Origin: Termitidicoccus mucosus | Lineage (GTDB): Bacteria; Verrucomicrobiota; Verrucomicrobiia; Opitutales; Opitutaceae | Reading direction: 5' to 3' | Assembly (NCBI RefSeq): GCF_038725785.1 | Contig: NZ_CP109796.1 | Location: 868,001-932,000 of the forward strand | Length of the DNA stretch: 64,000 bases | Shown here: piece by piece, positions 7,966 through 52,361 of the stretch | How the letters are laid out: every line of letters starts with the position of its first letter | Numbering within the stretch: the first letter of the stretch is position 1 | Made by a program: the position numbers and the translations under genes | Notes under the pieces: generated by a model | Told to the model about the DNA's origin: nothing | Seen by the model: only the letters and a program-made list of their open reading frames with translations | Databases searched by the model: none

Positions 7966-10900
7966 CTACCCCACCCACGCCCGCGCGTTGCGGAAGAGAC
8001 GCATCCAAGGAGCGTCGTCGTGGGCAAACCAACTCTTCGGGCACCAACTTTGCTGCACCGTGCGGAAAACGCGCTCGGGGTGCGGCATCAGGATCGTCAC
8101 GCGTCCGTCGCGGGTCGTGATCGCGGTGATGCCGTGCGGGCTGCCGTTGGGGTTGAGCGGATATTGCTCCGTGACGCGATGGCGGTTGTCCACGTAACGC
8201 GCGCTGACCAGGCCGCTGGCGGCGCTGAAGGCATCGGCGTCATCCGCCGTGGGAAATTCCGCATAGCCTTCGCCGTGGGCGACGGCAATGGGGATGACGC
8301 TGCCTTCCATGCCCTGAAAGAGGACGCTGGGACTTTTTTCGATGAGCAGCGAGCAGACCCGGGCCTCGAAGCGCTCGGATTTGTTTTGGACGAAACGGGG
8401 CCAGGCTTCGGCGCCGGGGATGATCTCGTGGAGATTGCTCATCATCTGGCAGCCGTTGCACACGCCGAGGGCAAAGGTGTCGGGGCGGGCGAAGTAGGCG
8501 GCGAATTCGTCGCGGGCGCGAGGGTTGAAAAGGATGCTCTTGGCCCAGCCTTCGCCGGCGCCGAGAACGTCGCCGTAGCTGAAGCCGCCGCAGGCGACGA
8601 GGCCGCGGAAATCGCGCAGGCTGATGCGTCCGTCGAGAATGTCGGTCATGTGGACATCGACGGCCCGGAAGCCGGCGCGGGTGAAGGCGGCGGCCATCTC
8701 GATCTGGCCGTTCACGCCTTGCTCGCGGAGGATGGCGATGGCGGGGCGGGACGCGGAGACATGGGGAAAAACGGACTTCGGCGTGGGACGATCCGAGGTG
8801 GTTTCCGGGTAGGGCGAACCCTCCGGGTGAGCCGCTGTCCCCGGCTCGGCGGGGACGCCTCGCCCTACCTGACCGGCGGCGTAGTCGAAGGTGATTTTCG
8901 GCGTGATGCCGGGATTCTCCGGGTCGAGTTTGAGCTGGTATTCGGACTCGGCGCACGCCGGGTTGTCGCGAAGGGCGGCGATGCGGCGGGTGGTGTCGCT
9001 CCAGATGGCGCGGAGGTTTTTGAGGCTGTCGTTGAAGAGGACGTGGCCGTCGCGTCCGGTTTGGCGGACGCGGAGGGCGGCGTGGTCATTCAGGGCGCCG
9101 ATGCGGTGGGCGCAGGTCTTGAAGCCGTGTTCGCGAAGGAGGAGCATGACGTCGTCGAGGTCGGCGGCGCGGATCTGGACGAGGGCTCCGAGTTCCTCGG
9201 AGAAGAGGGCGGCGAGCGGGCTGGCCGCGGCGGGGAGCTGGAGGTCGAGGCCGGTGTTGCCCGCAAAGGCCATTTCGACGGCGGCGGCGAAGAGGCCGCC
9301 GTCGCTGCGGTCGTGGTAGGCGAGGAGTTTGCCCTGCTCATTCATGGCCTGGATGGCGGCCCAGAAGGCTTTCAGGTCGGCGGCGCTGTCCACGTCGGGC
9401 GGGATGTCTCCAGTTTGCGAATACACCTGCGCGAGGATGGAGCCGCCGAGCCGGTCCTTGCCGCGGCCGAGGTCGATGAGGAGCAGTTCGGTGGGACCGA
9501 CGGGCCGGCCGGCGGCATCGGGATCGGAGGGGCGGAGGAGTTGCGGGGTGAGGGTTTTCCGGATGTCGGCGACGGGGGCGAAGGCGGAGACGATGAGCGA
9601 GACGGGCGCGGTGACGCGTTTGGAATGCGGAGCGCGGAATGCGGAATGCGGAATGGCCGGAACTTCGGAATGGGGAGCGGGGGTGGCGGGGTGCGCTGGT
9701 GGCGGGGTGTGTTTTAATTCCGCATTCCGCACTCCGCATTCCGCATTTTCCTCCCAGACGGTGGACATGCTCATGGAATCCTTGCCGACGGGAATGGTGA
9801 TGCCGAGGGCGGGGCAGAGTTCCATGCCGACGGCGCGGACGGCGGCGTAGAGGTCGGCAGCGTCGCCGGGGTGCGCAGGGGCGGCCATCCAGTTGGCGGA
9901 GAGGTTGACGCGCCCGAGGTCGGGGATGCGGGCGGCGGCGAGGTTGGTGAGCGCCTCGCCGACGGCAAGGCGGGCGGAAGCCGCGGCGTTGTTGACGGCG
10001 ACGGGGGTGCGTTCGCCCATGGACATGGCTTCGCCGGTGTAAACGTCGAAGGCGGTGGCGGTGACGGCGCAGTCGGCCACGGGGACCTGCCAGGGGCCGA
10101 CCATCTGGTCGCGGGAGATGAGGCCGGTGACGGTGCGGTCGCCGATGGAGATGAGGAAGGTTTTGTCGGCGACGGCGGGATGCGCGAGGACGCGACGGGC
10201 GGCCTCGGCGAGGACGATGCCGGCGGGGTCGAGGGGCGCGAGGGGACGCGCGCGGGTGGTCTCCTGGCGATGCATGCGCGGGGGTTTGCCGAGGAGGACT
10301 TCGAGGGGCATGTCGATGGGAGTGTTCTTGAAATGCGGGTCTTCAAGGACGAGGCGTTTTTCCGCGGTGGCCCGGCCGACGATGGCATAGGGACAACGTT
10401 CGCGCGCGCAGAGTTGCCTGAAGGTCTCGATGCGATCGGCGGGAACGGCGAGGACGTAGCGCTCCTGGGATTCGTTGCACCAGATTTCGAGCGGCGACAT
10501 GCCGGGCTCGTCGTTGGGGATTTTCCGGAGGTCGAAGCGTCCGCCGCGTCCGCCGTCGTTGACGAGTTCGGGGAGGGCGTTGGAAACGCCGCCGGCGCCG
10601 ACGTCGTGGATGAAGCTGATGGGGTTTTCGTCGCCGAGAGCCCAGCAACGGTCGATGACTTCCTGGCAGCGGCGCTGCATTTCGGGGTTGTCGCGCTGGA
10701 CGCTGGCGAAATCGAGGTCGGCCTGGCCGGAGCCGCTGGCCATGGAGCTGGCCGCGCCGCCGCCGAGGCCGATGAGCATGGCGGGGCCGCCGAGCACGAT
10801 GAGGTGGTCGCCGGGGTTGATGACGCCTTTTTTGACGTGGCCGGGGGCGATATTACCGAGGCCGCCGGCGAGCATGATGGGTTTGTGGTAGCCGCGAATC

Positions 10901-12267
10901 TCCGATTCGTGGCAGTTTAAGTTGGAAGTTGAAGTTGAAGTGCCGGCGTCGGCGGACGCGTCTGTTTTTCTTAAACTTAAACTTTCAACTTCAACTGGCG
11001 AGGCCGCCGGCACGGCGGCCTCGTAGGTGCGGAAGTAGCCGTTGATGTTGGGGCGTCCGAATTCGTTGTTGAAGGCGGCGCCGCCGAGGGGGCCGTCGAT
11101 CATGATGTCGAGGGCGCTGACGATGCGTCCGGGCTTGCCGTTGTCGGTCCGCTCCCAGGGCTGGAGCGCGCCGGGTATCCTGAGATTGGATACAGTGAAG
11201 CCGGTGAGCCCGGCCTTGGGCTTGGAGCCGCGCCCGGTGGCGCCTTCGTCGCGAATCTCGCCGCCGGAGCCGGTGGCCGCGCCGGGAAAGGGCGAGATGG
11301 CGGTGGGATGGTTGTGGGTTTCGACTTTGCAGAGGATGTGGATGTCCTGCTCGTGGGCGGCGTAGTCGCCGGTGGCGGGATCGGGATAGAAGCGTCCGCC
11401 GCGGGAACCCTCGAAAACGGCGGCGTTGTCCTTGTAGGCGGAGAGGATGCCGGCGCTGTGGAGTTCGTGGGTGTTGCGGATCATCTGGAAGAGCGAGCGG
11501 TCGCGTTTCTCGCCGTCGATTTCCCAGGTGGCGTTGAAGATCTTGTGGCGGCAGTGCTCGGAATTGGCCTGCGCGAACATCATGAGCTCGATGTCGTTGG
11601 GGTCGCGGCCAAGCGCGGTAAAGGATTTGACGAGGTAGTCGATCTCGTCGTCGGCGAGGGCAAGGCCGAGGTCGCGGTTCGCGTTGACGAGGGCGTCGCG
11701 TCCCCGGGCGAGGACGGGGACGGTGGTCATGGGGTGCGGCTGCTCGTGTCGGAAGAGGGCGGCGAGTTCGTCGGTGCCGGCGAAGACGGCCTGCGTCATG
11801 CGGTCGTGGAGGCGTGCGCGGAGGAGGTCGAGTTTGCCGGCGGGAAGGACGTGGAGCGGCGGCTGAAGGGCGGCATTGTCGATCTCGATCGTGTAGGCGA
11901 TGACACGCTCGATGCGCTTGACGGTGGCGAGGCCGCAGATGTGGGCGATGTCGGTGGCCTTGCTGGACCAGGGGGAAATGGTGCCGGGACGGGGGGCGAC
12001 GATGAGGGAAAGGCTGGGGATGGCGGGCGCGGCGGAAGTATTTTTTTCAGCCGTCAGGCTTTTTTCCCGGGGACCGTAGGTGAGGAGTTTTTCGAGGATG
12101 GTTTGCTGCGCGGCGGGAAGCGCGGTGGCGGCGGGGTCGGCCAGTTCGGCGATGTGGAGGAATTGCGCGGCGATGCGGACGACGGGAATGCCGGCGGCGG
12201 CGAGGTCCTGCCGAAGCTTTTGGAGGCGGAATTGGGAAAGGGCGGAGGAGCCGCGGTGGATGAGCAT
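7966..12267 (-). CDS. purL: Phosphoribosylformylglycinamidine synthase, single-chain PurL
   Basis: 1433 residues, longer than the roughly 1295 of the E. coli enzyme that it matches throughout by recall. It makes FGAM from FGAR, ATP and glutamine in purine synthesis. Visible landmarks: [10 protein letters not shown] at the N-terminus, [50 protein letters not shown], and the glutaminase domain with [16 protein letters not shown], the nucleophile in [10 protein letters not shown] near residue 1270, and PHPERVFR near the end. The extra length is mostly three in-frame palindromic inserts at about residues 424-451, 840-882 and 1133-1153, all at places where E. coli has short loops or linkers. No frame break is seen, so the enzyme is probably active. 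Confidence 0.95.
8809..8868. repeat. In-frame palindromic element A in purL (GTAGGGCGA family)
   Basis: 60 bases, exactly 20 codons, bounded by GTAGGGCGA and TCGCCCTAC. It lies in the linker before the glutaminase domain, near residues 1133-1153 of PurL. Its right half, GGCTCGGCGGGGACGCCTCG followed by CCCTAC, is identical to the element at 45154-45206. Confidence 0.9.
9622..9747. repeat. In-frame palindromic element B in purL (GGAATGCGGAATGCGG family)
   Basis: 126 bases, exactly 42 codons. Both arms are runs of GGAATGCGG units (9622-9653) and the inverted ATTCCGCATTCCGC (to 9747), around a GC-rich spacer. It replaces the short loop that in E. coli PurL joins a Trp-containing segment to the PLSLVISAF-like strand. 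A single arm of the same type is at 42293-42331. Confidence 0.9.
10914..10996. repeat. In-frame palindromic element C in purL (AGTTGAAGTTGAA family)
   Basis: The arms AGTTTAAGTTGGAAGTTGAA and the inverted TTTCAACTTCAACT (ending 10996) enclose a GC-rich centre. On the coding strand it yields a Ser/Thr-rich insert just before the conserved RGYHKPIML motif. The AT-rich arms stand out against the surrounding GC-rich gene. Confidence 0.88.
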
Positions 12268-12387
12268 GATGAGGATGAAAAAGCGTTAATTAAGAAAACC
12301 GTCTTTCAAACCGCTAGCCAAAAGGCACGGTCCGCAAAACGCAGCACGAAAAGTCCCGCGTCATTTATGCGGGCGGCGCGGCGGGGT

Positions 12388-16744: not shown

Positions 16745-16833
16745 TTTAGACAGAATGAACAGAATTTAATAAAATGGACGGAATGAAGGTTTCAATTTGT
16801 TCATTCTTTTTCATTCTGTTCATTCTGTCTAAA
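16745..16833. repeat. Palindromic element, AGACAGAATGAACAG family
   Basis: The arms TTTAGACAGAATGAACAG and the inverted CTGTTCATTCTGTCTAAA close an 89-base unit. It lies directly after the previous element. Confidence 0.88.
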
Positions 16834-23762: not shown

Positions 23763-24064
23763 CGAGCCCCGCCGACGTGGCCGCCCACGTCGAAAACCAT
23801 AAGATGCCGCGCAGCCGCGTGAGCGACTGGGAGCGCCGGCATCTTGCCGGCAGGTGGCACGGGCGACTCGCCCGTGGGTTTGGCGACGCTTCGCGTCGTC
23901 TGCCGGCTGGAAGCCGGCGCTCCCAGTCGCTCGCGCGCCGACGCTTGGCTGACACCTCTTCCGGCTGCACCCGCTCCGTCGTGTCCACCGCAAAGCCCTC
24001 GCCCTCTGCCTGAAAAATTTCATCCTTCAAACCCCGGCGGTTCGCGGATTTATATCGGTGGCTT
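23763..24064. other. Intergenic region with palindromic element
   Basis: 302 bases between the sulfatase and the O-antigen ligase-like gene. Apart from the element at 23821-23933 and a short GACGTGG/CCACGTC hairpin near 23774, nothing is recognisable. No terminator with a T-tract is seen. Confidence 0.7.
23821..23933. repeat. Palindromic element, GCGACTGGGAGCGCCGGC family, copy 2
   Basis: The arms GAGCGACTGGGAGCGCCGGC and the exact inverse enclose a core with GGGCGACTCGCCC and GACGCTTCGCGTC hairpins. The arms match the element at 1860-2002. The core (CCCGTGGGTTTGG) resembles that of 5294-5453, so this copy looks like a mosaic of two families. Confidence 0.92.
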
Positions 24065-43809: not shown

Positions 43810-45312
43810 TTACTGGATGCGCGGGGCAAGAAGGGTGTCGTCTGCAGCGGCGTTGTCGATGGCGGATGCGCTAGGAATCACATCATTTTCGCGGATTTCC
43901 AAGAACGTATATGGGTAGTTCAGATCCGTGGTGGTGGCCGCGCTGGCGGCGGCGGAGGTTCCGCCCGACGCGACGCCGGTGGCGGAGCGTCCGGTGGCGG
44001 TGTTGGCGCCGGCGGCGGCGGGGTTGCCTGCCGAGGCGCCGGAGTTGGCGTCGCCGGAAGCCGCCGCGGCCGTCTCGGCGGTCTCGGTCCAGGATTTCGG
44101 CGGCGCGGCGCCTTTCGGCGGGGCCACGAGGACGTTGAGACGGTAAACCGACTCGCCTTCGCGCACGGTCACGATGATGCGGAGGGCCTTGATTTCAACC
44201 CCCAGGGACATGGCGAGGGAGTTGCCCCCGAGGAGGGTGCCGATTTCGTCGGTGCTGGTGAAATAACCGGCGGCGCCGCCCGCGCGGTTGTCGGCGCCGC
44301 TGAGGAAGTCGTCGAGCGAGCGCTGCTGCTGGCGGGTGGTGTCGAGGTCGCCGAGCGCGGCCAGGAGATCCGGAGGGGCGGCGTTGATGTTCGGGTTGTC
44401 GTAGCTGAAAAGCGAGAAGGTGGCGGCGAAGCGGTGCCAGAGTTCGTTGCGATTGCCGTGCTCGTCATAAAACACCTCGCGCGCGTAGTCGATGGAGGCG
44501 AGTTCGTCGAAGGACTGGAAGCTGCGTCCGGGCGGCGCGAAGGGGATTTCGTCGCGCTCATAATCCTCGGGCTGCGGCGCGCCGGCGGCCGAGGGGATGT
44601 AATCGGGACGCATCCAACTGAGGAGCGCGTCGGCCAGCTTCTCGGCGTCGTTTTGCGAGAGCTCCCAGGACTTGAAGAGGTTGACCAGCGTGGTGGGCTC
44701 GACGTTGGGCAGGGACAGCTTCCCGCTTTCGTCCACAAAGGTGATTTCGACGGTGCGCCCCTCGGCGGGCGCGTAGGCGGCGAAGCCGAGCGGATCGCCC
44801 CACCCTTCCGCCGGGCTATGGAGCGCGCCGATGGTGGCGCGAAAATCCTCCAGCACGGCAAGCGTGGTCTCGAGTGCGGAATAGGCTTCGAGCCGCAAGT
44901 GGGAGGCGTCGTTGGCGCGGACCTCGACGAGCAGGTCGTTGGACGCCTTTTCGATGAAGAGCGTCATCGCCAGGCCGACCACGACCAGAGTGATGAGCAC
45001 GAGCACAAGGATGGAGGCGCGCGCGGCGCGCGGAATTTTCGATTTTCGATTTTCGATTCTCGATTGGGGCGCTGCCGCGCCGGAGGCTGGCGTGGCGTTT
45101 TCCTGCGTGTCGCAACTATAATATTTCCGATTAACAGTGGCGCGGCAGCGCCGGTAGGGCGAAGCCTCCGGCTGCGCCGCGGCTCGGCGGGGACGCCTCG
45201 CCCTACCATTTGGGCGAAGGTTGAGGGGAAATACCATATCACCACGCGCGCCCTCCTCGGCGCGGCAGCGGCCCAATCGTCCATCGTAAATCTGAAATCG
45301 TAAATCCCTCAT
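43810..45312 (-). CDS. gspK: General secretion pathway protein K, with repeat-derived leader
   Basis: 500 residues from ATG 45312, whose ATGA overlaps the gspJ stop. The first 95 or so residues come from a nested palindromic element, ending in SRIENRKSKI; the true pseudopilin helix follows: SILVLVLITLVVVGLAMTLFIEKA. The GspK alpha domain then reads WELSQNDAEKLADALLSWMRPD, with a typical DELASIDYAREVFYDEHGN and SYDNPNINAAPPDLLAALGD. The C-terminus is Ala/Gly/Thr-rich. GspK caps the pseudopilus tip. No closer start codon exists between the element and the helix, so the long leader seems real. Confidence 0.85.
   Translation of the reverse strand: MRDLRFQIYDGRLGRCRAEEGARGDMVFPLNLRPNGRARRPRRAAAQPEASPYRRCRATVNRKYYSCDTQENATPASGAAAPQSRIENRKSKIPRAARASILVLVLITLVVVGLAMTLFIEKASNDLLVEVRANDASHLRLEAYSALETTLAVLEDFRATIGALHSPAEGWGDPLGFAAYAPAEGRTVEITFVDESGKLSLPNVEPTTLVNLFKSWELSQNDAEKLADALLSWMRPDYIPSAAGAPQPEDYERDEIPFAPPGRSFQSFDELASIDYAREVFYDEHGNRNELWHRFAATFSLFSYDNPNINAAPPDLLAALGDLDTTRQQQRSLDDFLSGADNRAGGAAGYFTSTDEIGTLLGGNSLAMSLGVEIKALRIIVTVREGESVYRLNVLVAPPKGAAPPKSWTETAETAAAASGDANSGASAGNPAAAGANTATGRSATGVASGGTSAAASAATTTDLNYPYTFLEIRENDVIPSASAIDNAAADDTLLAPRIQ
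45033..45308. repeat. Nested palindromic element in the gspK leader
   Basis: Outer arms: GATTTTCGATTCTCGATTGG followed by GGCGCTGCCGCGCC (45033-45081), against the inverse GGCGCGGCAGCGGCCCAATC with GTAAATCTGAAATCGTAAAT (45259-45307). Inside lie another GGCGCGGCAGCGCC copy at 45140 and a complete GTAGGGCGA element at 45154-45206. The whole is open in the gspK frame. Confidence 0.92.
45154..45206. repeat. Palindromic element, GTAGGGCGA family, copy 2
   Basis: Bounded by GTAGGGCGA and TCGCCCTAC. The right half is identical to the purL element at 8809-8868; the left half differs in length. It is inserted inside the larger element, showing that the families are laid down at different times. Confidence 0.92.
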
Positions 45313-45986
45313 AGCATGGGCTGTCCCTGGCCGAGGCTGGGCAGGTTGACGACCGTCTCGATGGTGCGGCCGGAGTAGGCGAAAGTGAACTTGAGGCGTT
45401 GCGGCACGAGGCCGGCGCCGTTGGCGTCCTTCTGGAACGTGGTCTCGGTTTTCCAGTTTTTGAACTCGGTGTCGTAATAAAGGTAACTCATCGCGGTCAC
45501 GAGCGGCGAGATGACCGTCTCGCGCGGCGCGTCGTCGGCGAAGTTGATCTCCAGGCGCGAATGCCAGAGCAGCACGAGCCCGGCGCCGTCGCGCACGGCC
45601 AGCGAGCACACGACGTTGGGCAGCGGACGCTGCGGCCACGCGCAAAGGCGGCTGCCGCCGGAAAATTCGCAGGTGAGCAGTTCCTCGGTCGCGCCGGTCG
45701 GCAGGCGCACTTCCTTCACGGCGGGCGCGGTGGCGGTCGAGAGCACGGCGGGCGGCAGGACGGCGCGCGCCAGTTCGCGTTCGACAAAGCGCGTGACATT
45801 GCGCGTGTGGAGTTCGAAGAGGCGCAGGTCGCTGTTGCGTCCCCACAGCTCGCCCATCGAAAGCACGAGCATGTTCATGCCCACAAAGACCAGCGCCGCG
45901 ATGGCGACCGCCACGAGGATTTCAAGCAGGGTGAAGGCGCGGCGGGATCGGAGAGAGTGGAGGCGCGGCGCGGGCTTTTTTTTCAT
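45309..45986 (-). CDS. gspJ: General secretion pathway protein J
   Basis: 225 residues. Short basic leader, then the prepilin site RRA|FTLLEILVAVAIAALVF with Ala rather than Gly at -1. The minor pseudopilin body includes WGRNSDLRLFELHTRNVTRFVERELARAVLPP and FYDTEF-like YLYYDTEFKNWKTETTF, matching GspJ. It forms part of the pseudopilus tip with H, I and K. The start overlaps gspI by four bases. Confidence 0.85.
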   Translation of the reverse strand: MKKKPAPRLHSLRSRRAFTLLEILVAVAIAALVFVGMNMLVLSMGELWGRNSDLRLFELHTRNVTRFVERELARAVLPPAVLSTATAPAVKEVRLPTGATEELLTCEFSGGSRLCAWPQRPLPNVVCSLAVRDGAGLVLLWHSRLEINFADDAPRETVISPLVTAMSYLYYDTEFKNWKTETTFQKDANGAGLVPQRLKFTFAYSGRTIETVVNLPSLGQGQPML

Positions 45987-46738
45987 CGCCGTCCTCCCTG
46001 GTTTTGCGAGGCGGGATTATTTCTGCCGCCGCCTTGGTTTTTGCCACCGCCCTGGCCCTGATTTTTGCCGCCGGAGTTCTTGCCGCCGCCTTTGCCCGAG
46101 CCACCGTTGCTGCCGCCGGCGACGCCGCTGCTCATGCCGGAACCGAAGCCGGAGAGGGGCGATGTGATCTGCATGTCGAGAATCCGCTGGCGCGTCTCCG
46201 CCCGCAACGCCTCGCGGTCGGCCGGTTGCGACCAGGTCGGGCGCAGCAGGCGGAACGTTTCCACAACGGTGCGCGCCGGGCTTTCTTTGGCGGCCTCGAT
46301 CTCGCAAGTGAAGGTGACGAGGAACAAATCCGCCGTCTCGGTCGGCTCGACCTCGGCCTTCCATTTCACGCGTCCGCCGTCCGCCCCCTCGAAATCCGCG
46401 CCGGCCAGCGCCGCGTCGAGGCTGCCCTCGGCCAGCAGCATCTCGCGGGCGAACCGCACGTCGAGTTCGCCCGCCGGGCCGCGTCCGGCGACCTCGTAGG
46501 CGGTGAGGATGTTGAGGTAGGATGCGACCAGCACGACCGCCATTGTCGCGAAAATCGCCAGCGCGACGAGCACCTCGATCATGGTGAAGGCGCGGTGAAT
46601 TTTCGATTTTCGATTCTCGATTCTCGATTGATGGCGCTGCCGCGCCAAAGGATTTGCCGGATCAGACAGATCGGACGGATGCGTTTTGGCGCGGCAGCGC
46701 CCCAATCGAGAATCGAGAATCGAAAATCGAAAATTCAC
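45983..46738 (-). CDS. gspI: General secretion pathway protein I, with repeat-derived leader
   Basis: 251 residues from GTG 46738, whose GTGA overlaps the gspH stop; AAGGAGGAGG lies just upstream. The first 49 residues are encoded by a palindromic element and end in SRIENRKSKIHRA, followed by the prepilin-type helix FTMIEVLVALAIFATMAVVLV. The body includes LVTFTCEIEAAKESPARTVVETFRL. The last 55 residues are a Gly/Asn/Gln/Lys tail (GGSNGGSGKGGGKNSGG and so on), unusual for GspI. Leader length is far beyond the normal 6 to 10 residues, but it is removed on cleavage. Confidence 0.85.
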   Translation of the reverse strand: MNFRFSILDSRLGRCRAKTHPSDLSDPANPLARQRHQSRIENRKSKIHRAFTMIEVLVALAIFATMAVVLVASYLNILTAYEVAGRGPAGELDVRFAREMLLAEGSLDAALAGADFEGADGGRVKWKAEVEPTETADLFLVTFTCEIEAAKESPARTVVETFRLLRPTWSQPADREALRAETRQRILDMQITSPLSGFGSGMSSGVAGGSNGGSGKGGGKNSGGKNQGQGGGKNQGGGRNNPASQNQGGRR

Positions 46739-46743
46739 CGCGC
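46590..46743. repeat. Palindromic element in the gspI leader
   Basis: The arms GCGCGGTGAATTTTCGATTT and the inverse AAATCGAAAATTCACCGCGC are perfect and close a 154-base unit that also contains GGCGCTGCCGCGCC pairs. It extends from just upstream of the GTG start into the codons directly before the cleavage site, and leaves the frame open. The inner arms match those of 45033-45308. Confidence 0.93.
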
Positions 46744-47484
46744 CTCCTCCTTTACCAGCACCTGCGCGCAGGTCCACGGGTCGATGTCGAGCACCAAGGG
46801 CTCCGAGCCGCCCGCGCGCAGTTGCGCGCGGAATGGCGTGCAGGTGCCGTCACCGTAAAACGTGACCGACGCCAGCGTGGCCGTCTCCATCAAGGCGCCG
46901 CCGACCAGAATGGTGCTGTTGCCTTTTTGCGTCGTAAGAAAATCGCAGACCACCATCGCGACGTTCGCGGCGGAGGCCGCATTGTTGCCCCCGCCACCCC
47001 CGCCGCTTCCGGCGCTCGCAGCGCCGCCGCCGGCGGCCGTTTTTGCCACGCCAAACGGATAGCGCGTCTCGCCGCCTTCCCATGTCGCCACGAGCGCGGA
47101 AGGTTCTTCGTTCCCGCCCTTGGCGAAACGCAGCGTCACCTCGCGCCCGGACAGGAGCGCCTGTTTGCGACAGCCGTTGACCGCCTGCCAAAACACCTCC
47201 TCAGACGAAGGCGGCTTGGAATCGGAGATGCTCACCGCCCCCACGATAAACACGCCCGTGATCATTCCGATAAGCGCGATGACGAGGAGGATTTCGAGCA
47301 GGGTGAAAGCCGCGCGTCCTCGCCCGCCCCGCAGATGGAGGGGAAAACGTCGGGCCTGACCTTGCGTCAGGCCGCGCCGGAGAGGAAACGCCTCGGTTTT
47401 AGTCGAAGTGCGATGGCCCCACACGCGCACGCGGCCTGACGCAAGGTCAGGCCCGACAAGAAAGCTGGAGCGCGCCGTGGTCAC
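46735..47484 (-). CDS. gspH: General secretion pathway protein H, with repeat-derived leader
   Basis: 249 residues from GTG 47484, five bases past the gspG stop. The first 59 residues contain the coding product of a palindromic element (FLVGPDLASGRVRVWG and the later RRGLTQGQARR), then RGRAA|FTLLEILLVIALIGMITGVF with Ala at -1. The mature part has WQAVNGCRKQALLSGREVTLRFA, then a Gly/Ala loop (GGGAASAGSGGGGGG), and ASVTFYGDGTCTPFRAQL at the C-terminus, the typical GspH fold. Start choice is less certain because no strong Shine-Dalgarno precedes it. Confidence 0.82.
   Translation of the reverse strand: MTTARSSFLVGPDLASGRVRVWGHRTSTKTEAFPLRRGLTQGQARRFPLHLRGGRGRAAFTLLEILLVIALIGMITGVFIVGAVSISDSKPPSSEEVFWQAVNGCRKQALLSGREVTLRFAKGGNEEPSALVATWEGGETRYPFGVAKTAAGGGAASAGSGGGGGGNNAASAANVAMVVCDFLTTQKGNSTILVGGALMETATLASVTFYGDGTCTPFRAQLRAGGSEPLVLDIDPWTCAQVLVKEEAR
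47349..47457. repeat. Palindromic element in the gspH leader (GTCGGGCCTGACCTTGCGTC family)
   Basis: The arms GTCGGGCCTGACCTTGCGTC and the inverse GACGCAAGGTCAGGCCCGAC are perfect, with the pair extended inward by AGGCCGCG/CGCGGCCT. 109 bases, inside the gspH frame upstream of the prepilin cleavage site. Confidence 0.93.
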
Positions 47485-47488
47485 GGAA

Positions 47489-47980
47489 TCACTGCACCGC
47501 CTGGCTGGCCGGGCCGGCTGACCAGTTTCCGATATCATCCGCGGTGCCGTCCTGCCCGTCCGGGCCTTTCGACCACACGTCGTAGCCGGTCCGGTTGCGC
47601 ACACCGGGGAACCGGTATTGGTAGGCGTTCTTCCACGGATCGAGCGGGATGTTGTCGCCCGTGATATAGGGGCCGCGCCAGCGGTCGGCCTTGTCCGCCG
47701 GGGACGTGATGAGCGCCTGCAACCCCTCGGCCGTGCTCGGGTAGTTGCCCATGTGCGTGCGGTAGGACTGGAGCGGCACTTGCAGGCTTTGGGTGACAAA
47801 CAGCCGCGCAGTGTCCTCCTGCGAACTGCCGAAGATCCGGTCCACATTGGTGATGGCCAGCGCGACAAGCATGCCGAGGATGGCCACGGCCAGCAGGATT
47901 TCGAGCAGCGTGAACCCGCGCGAATCCCGGCGGGCGGCGCGGCGGATGGATTGGGAGGAGAAGCGTGTTCGGGGAGTCAT
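47489..47980 (-). CDS. gspG: Major pseudopilin GspG
   Basis: 163 residues from ATG 47980. Canonical leader and site: RRDSRG|FTLLEILLAVAILGMLVALAI, with Gly at -1 and Glu at +5. The calcium-binding C-terminal part is complete: SYRTHMGNYPSTAEGLQALI, RWRGPYITGDNIPLDPWKNAYQYRFPG and SKGPDGQDGTADDIGNW. GspG forms the pseudopilus shaft. It is the first gene of the operon; gspC, D, E, F and the prepilin peptidase are not in this window. Confidence 0.95.
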   Translation of the reverse strand: MTPRTRFSSQSIRRAARRDSRGFTLLEILLAVAILGMLVALAITNVDRIFGSSQEDTARLFVTQSLQVPLQSYRTHMGNYPSTAEGLQALITSPADKADRWRGPYITGDNIPLDPWKNAYQYRFPGVRNRTGYDVWSKGPDGQDGTADDIGNWSAGPASQAVQ

Positions 47981-51563: not shown

Positions 51564-51621
51564 ACACAGCCCCTCGCATCTTCCAATCATCCAACTCCAC
51601 TTGCGAAATGGATTGGACTTT

Positions 51622-51700
51622 GGAGGGCCGAGCTCCCGCGAGGCCGTCGCGGTCGGACGCGACGTTTTTCGGCGACGGCCTCGCGGGAGCTCGGTCCTCC
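51622..51700. repeat. Palindromic element, CGAGCTCCCGCGAGGCCGTCG family
   Basis: The arms CCGAGCTCCCGCGAGGCCG and the inverse CGGCCTCGCGGGAGCTCGG close a 79-base unit with a further GGAGG/CCTCC pair at the ends and a CGCGGTCGGACGCG hairpin within. Confidence 0.9.
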
Positions 51701-52057
51701 ATCGAAAGAATAGTTATCATCGGGAATTGGTATGACTCCAAGGGCATCGGAACATCGGCATCGGATTTCATGCGGTGCCGATGCATATTTAACAAATTTA
51801 AAAAGAATATGTTGCATGCCAATAAGGTTCTAAAAAAGAACCTTGATATCCATCTTGTTCCTCTACTGCGCATCGCTTTCATCGCTCCCCGCCCAGTTCT
51901 TTATTCCGCCCCTCTCTTCTCCATCTACTCCATAATTTCGCCAGAGAATCCCTTCAGGTTCCGCTGGCATTGGTCAAAATCGCCATGACACCCCTCGCGC
52001 CTCCACGTGCCGCCCTCCTCGATTGTTTATTATACCATTTCCAAACCTTTAAATCTA

Positions 52058-52142
52058 ACCACGGATTTCACGGATGAACACGGATAAAACCAACGGTTTC
52101 CCAATCTTTCTCTTATCCGTGATAATCCGTGTTATCCGTGGT
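52058..52142. repeat. Palindromic element, ACCACGGATTTCACGGATG family
   Basis: The arms ACCACGGATTTCACGGATGA with AACACGGATAA, against TTATCCGTGATAATCCGTG with TTATCCGTGGT. 85 bases. The arms are built from repeats of CACGGAT. Confidence 0.9.
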
Positions 52143-52171
52143 CAAATAAAAAAAACGAACCATTAAATTAA

Positions 52172-52260
52172 ACAGCAAAGAAGCAAAGCCGCGCAAAGTT
52201 CCGCAAGGAAAACCATTATTATTATTCGCGCATCTTCGCGTCCCTTCGCGCCTTTGCTGT
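52172..52260. repeat. Palindromic element, ACAGCAAAGAAGC family
   Basis: The arms ACAGCAAAGAAGCAAAGCCG and the near-inverse CGCGCCTTTGCTGT (preceded by CTTCGCGTCCCTTCG) close an 89-base imperfect palindrome. Confidence 0.8.
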
Positions 52261-52279
52261 GAAAAACCGAACCAATAAT

Positions 52280-52361
52280 TTGAACAGAAGGAAACGAAGG
52301 ACACAAAGAAAACAACAATCATAGAAGGCATTCTTCGTCCCCTTTGTTTCCTTCTGTTCAA
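52280..52361. repeat. Palindromic element, TGAACAGAAGGAAACGAAGG family, copy 2
   Basis: The arms TTGAACAGAAGGAAACGAAG and the inverse TTTGTTTCCTTCTGTTCAA. Its full length aligns in reverse complement to 16646-16726. Confidence 0.92.

Follow-up and report, generated by a model that had tools for sequence, protein, structure and literature searches.

Palindromic elements in the leader peptides of minor pseudopilin genes and in core genes of an Opitutaceae-like bacterium

The gsp genes and their leader elements

The window that we have analysed is the 64,000-nucleotide stretch G000:C1:868001-932000 of the 7.92-Mb genome of Termitidicoccus mucosus (the source genome, G000); it contains the genes gspG, gspH, gspI, gspJ and gspK, which are located consecutively and in this order on the minus strand. 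In gspH, gspI and gspK, an inverted-repeat element is situated between the start codon and the prepilin cleavage site and leaves the reading frame open, as a preliminary description of the stretch had stated. Our comparison of these elements with the rest of the genome and with related genomes has led to a reading that we hold to be likely, namely that the leader inserts are copies of dispersed palindromes that insert genome-wide and survive at places where an in-frame insert is tolerated by the host protein. The genes and the elements are listed below, with their positions in the window:

47489..47980, minus strand: gspG, major pseudopilin (TIGR01710, 104.4 bits, above the equivalog cut-off); ordinary leader of 22 residues, no element
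46735..47484, minus strand: gspH-like minor pseudopilin (TIGR01708, 30.9 bits, below the cut-off); leader of 59 residues (at least 39)
45983..46738, minus strand: gspI-like minor pseudopilin (PF07963, 26 bits, above the cut-off; TIGR01707, 26 bits, below the cut-off); leader of 50 residues (at least 20)
45309..45986, minus strand: gspJ-like pseudopilin (PF07963, 26.9 bits, above the cut-off); ordinary leader of 17 residues, no inverted-repeat element
43810..45312, minus strand: gspK-like pseudopilin (NF037980, 54.6 bits from residue 102, below the cut-off); leader of 99 residues (at least 74)
47349..47457, minus strand: element in the gspH leader; 28-nt arms at 47349-47376 and 47430-47457, 100% complementary
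46583..46750, minus strand: heptamer (ATTTTCG) element in the gspI leader; 48-nt arms at 46583-46630 and 46703-46750, 96% complementary
45032..45308, minus strand: heptamer element in the gspK leader; 51-nt arms at 45032-45082 and 45258-45308, 82% complementary
45153..45207, minus strand: second hairpin, nested in the gspK element; arms at 45153-45169 and 45191-45207, a pair of repetitive extragenic palindromes (REPs) of the GTAG type

All four genes that follow gspG, candidate minor pseudopilins of type II secretion, fall below the NCBIfam equivalog cut-offs, and gspH has no Pfam match at E 0.001; the assignment is supported by the gene order and the similarity, which are conserved in the relatives. 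The GTG start codon of gspH occurs four bases past the stop codon of gspG, the GTG of gspI overlaps the stop codon of gspH, and the ATG of gspK overlaps that of gspJ; the last two overlaps (GTGA and ATGA) are real in the sequence, as had been described. For the leaders of gspH, gspI and gspK, lengths of 59, 49 and 95 residues had been proposed; our call of the cleavage sites leaves the first value unchanged and places the other two at 50 and 99. The minimum lengths given in the list are the shortest leaders that an ATG, GTG or TTG codon would permit, counting only start codons that leave a leader of at least five residues; in gspI, the minimum is reached through an internal TTG. The gspG leader is normal, again in line with the preliminary description, and the 200 nt upstream of gspG reach an inverted-repeat score of 7, with no element.

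The elements of gspI and gspK share their heptamer arms, and the string SRIENRKSKI is indeed present in both translations; the arms of the gspI element extend over the adjoining codons and the region of the start, with the GTG itself included. The gspH element, which had been called unrelated to the other two, belongs to a separate repeat family that has 90 genome matches among the matches listed, mostly single arms. The basic stretches SRIENRKSKIHRA and SRIENRKSKIPRAARA are located at the cleavage site. The hairpin that is nested in the gspK element carries GGTAGGGC at 45200-45207 and its complement at 45153-45160, i.e. it is a stem-loop with an end of the GTAG-REP kind.

Copies of the elements across the genome

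The preliminary description had missed both the genome-wide spread of the repeats and their copies inside core genes. The core of the gspI and gspK elements, an 18-mer, has 106 matches in the genome when one mismatch is allowed, whereas the reversed control has none. Twenty of the 57 genomes searched (the source genome included) contain it, all 20 being among the 37 genomes of the family, while none of the 20 genomes of other families contains it. Among the matches listed for the exact 18-mer, 45 of 80 loci, which are not a census, carry the names Opitutae, Opitutia, Opitutaceae, Opitutus, Ereboglobus or Lacunisphaera; the remaining listed loci include scattered single matches that may be due to chance.

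Outside the gsp operon, we have delimited 43 clusters, i.e. those around 100 of the 106 core matches, so that a few clusters may be missing from the count; the clusters with paired arms span 87-262 nt, and in some only one arm is present. In 16 of the 43, codon usage assigns one and the same open frame to the sequences that flank the element, and two of these 16 (L113 and L115) look like copies that are located just upstream of a start. Matches of hidden Markov models (HMMs) flank the element on both sides in 14 hosts, with the element in frame: a SNF2 helicase, Mfd, ValS, GcvP, a VIT/VWA protein, a GH2 enzyme, PurD, UvrA, HrpB, a PcrA-like helicase, a rhamnosidase, Mpl, a CusA-type pump and an RHS protein. 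In MenC and in a beta-helix protein, the HMM match lies on one side of the element only; PurD, CusA, the RHS protein and the beta-helix protein contain a single arm and no palindrome.

A second heptamer family, GCGGAAT, is present as a second insert in three of these hosts (SNF2, Mfd and GcvP), within the host frame, and a copy of it is located in purL within the window; the purL host is a full-length match to NF003672 (2018 bits, residues 7-1439):

9622..9742, minus strand: GCGGAAT-heptamer palindrome in purL, in frame; host frame 7969-12285, element at about residues 847-888

Our survey of palindromes with a score of at least 18, in the window and in the loci L098-L137, yielded 30 that do not belong to the heptamer family of gspI and gspK, of which 4 are in frame (all GCGGAAT), 3 are at a boundary and 23 are unclear, and 30 heptamer-bearing ones, of which 8 are in frame, 2 are in the same frame with a stop, 6 are at a boundary and 14 are unclear. 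Because the same kind of repeat occurs in frame in many core genes, the leaders appear to be one of many tolerated sites and not a dedicated switch. The earlier suggestion that the leader is a tolerated landing pad is thus supported, and it extends to the loops of core enzymes.

Some of these loops have received different inserts in related genera. In UvrA, the loop that follows RLNARS contains the ATTTTCG element in the source genome (score 17) and in the congener G001 (score 15), and unrelated palindromes in G004, G005 and G007 (scores 26, 17 and 26); the loop is short in G006, G022 and G023 (scores 5-6) and intermediate in G024 (score 10), and the sequence of G002 does not cover the site. 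The Mfd loop has ATTTTCG arms in the source genome and AAATCCC arms in G001, being short or different in the others, and the ValS loop is far longer than in eight aligned relatives. The leader elements belong to different families and code for different peptides. Judged by eye, the alignments of UvrA, Mfd and ValS show no direct target-site duplication, but the insertion points in them are blurred by the divergence of the loops. With regard to a mobilisation by a RAYT transposase, seven Y1_Tnp matches were found in the genome, none of which is tied to the palindromic elements by the present results.

The position of the element relative to the codons is not random: among 12 gene-body copies that have two arms, 11 have the first A of the first ATTTTCGATT at the third codon position (P about 5e-5 for one given phase, and about three times that for any phase), while the MenC and gspI copies have it at the second. 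A special openness of the heptamers in all frames, which we have also considered, turned out to be mild only, with 8264 of the 16384 possible 7-mers being stop-free on both strands; the CAATGAC heptamer of G024 is not stop-free on both strands.

Template switching at a hairpin is one possible source of arm extension. The arms in L102, L108, L120, L134 and gspI (46583-46750) extend symmetrically past the heptamers with bases that differ between copies, and look as though an inverted copy of the flank had been made; the arm bases outside the heptamers are, for example, GGGAGGG/CCCTCCC in Mfd and AAGGCTGAAGGG/CCCTTCAGCCTT in L120.

A further observation concerns leuS, whose only strong match in the genome (G000:C1:7223801-7226505, L131) is broken in two at a heptamer element that lies out of frame; profile positions 1-438 make up the N-terminal part and 479-842 the C-terminal part, and the two parts are located in different frames, both of which are open through the element. 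The gene may be genuinely split, or the break may come from a frameshift or from an error of sequencing.

Leader junctions in related genomes

In order to compare the leaders, the operon region was examined in 40 of 56 other genomes, 35 from the same family and 5 from other families of the order, and 145 leader junctions were placed across the source genome and these relatives. L074 contributed no junction; gspJ of L052, gspH of L075 and gspK of L078 were excluded as their cleavage motif was not found, together with the junctions that have a missing partner or a gap of more than 700 nt. A palindrome was called when the ungapped inverted-repeat score within the leader junction was at least 14; the control windows have the same length and start 45 nt into the mature part, so that the longest may overrun the end of the gene.

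By this score, 15 of the 145 leader junctions contain a palindrome, whereas none of the 144 control windows and none of the 145 letter-shuffled junctions does (Fisher p about 4e-5 for leader against control, which is a guide only, since the species are related). The 15 junctions come from ten genomes of eight genera, and all are among the 45 junctions that are at least 100 nt long. The other 30 long junctions carry no palindrome by score, which speaks against the elements alone making the leaders long; long unrelated leaders at the same places in relatives had been named beforehand as a finding that would tell against the preliminary description, and these 30 junctions touch that point. It had also been expected that relatives lacking the elements would align with a clean gap; this is borne out in part, as there is no single clean gap and leader length varies widely in the family, with medians of 14-16.5 residues for the shortest-possible leaders in the relatives.

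The position of start codons and the reading frame suggest that the long leaders of gspH, gspI and gspK are probably translated, as had been proposed, because no start follows the element and the frame is kept with the overlapping start. In all 15 element-bearing junctions, no ATG, GTG or TTG that would leave a leader of at least five residues occurs between the element and the cleavage site; in six of the 15, there is no start codon inside the element either, leaving upstream starts only. A gap of 2 mod 3, which makes the overlapping start read in frame, is found in 12 of the 13 element-bearing junctions of gspI, gspJ and gspK; if the lengths were free and independent, this would have a probability of about 1.7e-5, but the species are related and the junctions are not 13 independent events. 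Among element-free junctions, gaps of 2 mod 3 occur in 21 of 33 for gspI, 31 of 33 for gspJ and 16 of 28 for gspK. The frame is conserved between species despite changes in length: the gspI gaps of the three congeners (G000, G001 and G002) are 146, 212 and 209 nt, and the gspK gaps of two of them are 293 and 365 nt, all of them 2 mod 3, while the gspK of G001 lies off its contig.

We found no support for a general preference of the elements for prepilin leaders, as none of the 16 other prepilin-type matches in the genome, several of which are near-identical copies, has a palindrome in the upstream 200 nt (scores 6-10). Two of the prepilin-type matches are duplicated, at G000:C1:433116-438521 and 7622137-7627542, with an identical offset of 7,189,021 bases, which may reflect a real duplication or an assembly overlap.

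Origin of the leader elements and relation to known repeats

The arrangement that would best account for these findings is that selfish palindromes insert across the genome, and that a filter at the protein level retains the copies whose extra peptide is harmless; the mobility of the elements and the near-neutrality of their copies are part of this inference. The prepilin leaders would be a tolerant place, because they are cut off and because their length varies widely in the family: the ribosome would start at the codon that lies on the stop of the upstream gene and read through the element, and the prepilin peptidase would then remove the whole leader. Several points weigh against this account. 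We infer the translation of the leaders in the cell from sequence, and their removal by the prepilin peptidase from general knowledge of the pathway. The codon-usage model was trained partly on eight element-bearing host open reading frames and its frame calls are not independent for these hosts, because those frames carry elements; the HMM matches are independent. In the sole leuS that we have found, the split lies at a copy that is out of frame; leader elements are confined to the gsp operon, all 16 other prepilin matches being free of them; and pure tolerance leaves the codon phase (11 of 12) unexplained.

The preliminary description had also suggested that the RNA hairpins adjust the ratio of the minor pseudopilins, and a fuller form of this idea, in which the ribosome-binding site is hidden until the upstream gene is translated, would fit the starts that overlap stops, as in coupled genes, and the gspI arm that contains the GTG start: the source-genome junction folds at -147.9 kcal/mol, with an unpaired probability of 0.0 for the start codon. 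The occlusion of the start codon is not conserved (0.0 in G000, 0.64 in G001 and 0.39 in G002), the same hairpins occur deep inside gene bodies, and 130 of the 145 leader junctions have no such palindrome; the regulatory reading is weak on account of the first two of these findings, and we regard it as unlikely. In the same folds, the Shine-Dalgarno stretch upstream of gspI is unpaired with a probability of 0.44 in G000, 0.33 in G001 and 0.11 in G002, and this nearly closed state speaks for occlusion in G002. A compensation of the G002 start-codon change in the opposite arm was considered and dropped, as the fold shows mismatches there. We find it still harder to accept that the elements lie in untranslated DNA, with true starts inside or after them and leaders of ordinary length: the TTG within the gspI element would yield a leader of 20 residues, and untranslated status is suspected for many N-terminal REPs by the authors of a study of GTAG REPs in Opitutus terrae and other species (PMC3733652), but the gspK leader has at least 74 residues, and the start-codon and frame counts given above (15 of 15, 6 of 15 and 12 of 13) point the other way. 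Least probable to us is a positive selection of the leaders for length or charge, with the elements being recruited to supply basic residues before the cleavage site. The basic character of SRIENRKSKIHRA and SRIENRKSKIPRAARA, and the presence of elements in three of the five gsp genes against none of the other prepilin matches, agree with such a recruitment; the short leaders that are possible in the relatives, and the leader elements from different families with different peptides, do not.

A broader proposal may be made tentatively, namely that the palindromes with heptamer arms form a class of their own among coding mobile elements: a tandem stop-free 7-mer is open in every frame, and the element could therefore enter any reading frame; unrelated families (ATTTTCG, GCGGAAT and AAATCCC) would independently exploit this and revisit the same loops and leaders, and the preferred codon phase would reflect a codon-aware filter or an undescribed insertion rule. 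We consider this possible, though doubtful.

Tandem heptanucleotides that are dispersed over a genome are known from heterocystous cyanobacteria as short tandemly repeated repetitive (STRR) sequences, whose units seem to differ from the heptamers found here, and protein-coding palindromes reportedly occur in Wolbachia. In-frame palindromes are already known from Rickettsia and from the REPs of Opitutus terrae; the heptamer-armed families in prepilin leaders are a new variation. The Rickettsia palindromic elements are described as being about 100-150 bp long, multi-copy, located both between genes and, in frame, within conserved protein genes, and tolerated (PMC10969869, PMC2229807). The present elements resemble them in size and copy number (paired-arm clusters of 87-262 nt, 106 core matches) and in their in-frame position in conserved genes (14 HMM-flanked hosts, three of them, PurD, CusA and RHS, single-armed), but differ in their tandem-heptamer arms, in their host, an Opitutaceae-like bacterium with a genome of 7.9 Mb, and in their copies in prepilin leaders; the likeness drawn here is one of way of life.

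GTAG REPs are stem-loops of 20-40 bp with GTAG at one end. According to the main text of Di Nocera et al. 2013 (PMC3733652), intragenic GTAG REPs reach their highest number in Opitutus terrae, and in-frame palindromes occur there in both uvrA genes, RNA helicases and DNA ligase; in that text, 'pilin' and 'heptamer' have 0 occurrences and 'secretion' has one. The likeness is found in a related bacterium, and in the nested gspK hairpin with GGTAGGGC at both ends; the heptamer arms, unlike GTAG REPs, end in ATTTTCG.../...CGAAAAT without GTAG, as judged by eye. The palindromic amphipathic repeat coding sequence of Mollicutes and others is also described as a protein-coding palindromic repeat (PMC2996958). 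Small non-autonomous repeats, i.e. miniature inverted-repeat transposable elements (MITEs) and enterobacterial repetitive intergenic consensus sequences, are described as fused in frame with open reading frames, once as part of a signal peptide (PMC2229807); the TA ends and the target-site duplication of MITEs are not established for the present elements. Among the titles and abstract openings listed by a search with few subscription journals in its scope, none describes palindromic insertions in pseudopilin leaders or heptamer palindromes in coding sequence.

Protein-coding palindromes are thus extended from intracellular Rickettsia and the REPs of Opitutus to heptamer-armed families in a large genome, where they occupy core repair and translation enzymes as well as prepilin leaders. 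The UvrA and Mfd loops and the gsp leaders, which differ in their inserts between sister genera, are natural maps of insertion tolerance. Gene callers may trim or split genes that carry such elements; the long pseudopilin leaders described here are unlikely to be annotation errors.

Further long inverted repeats, of other sequence, are located in the window at positions 1860-2002, 16745-16833, 23809-23944, 51621-51701 and 52048-52361.

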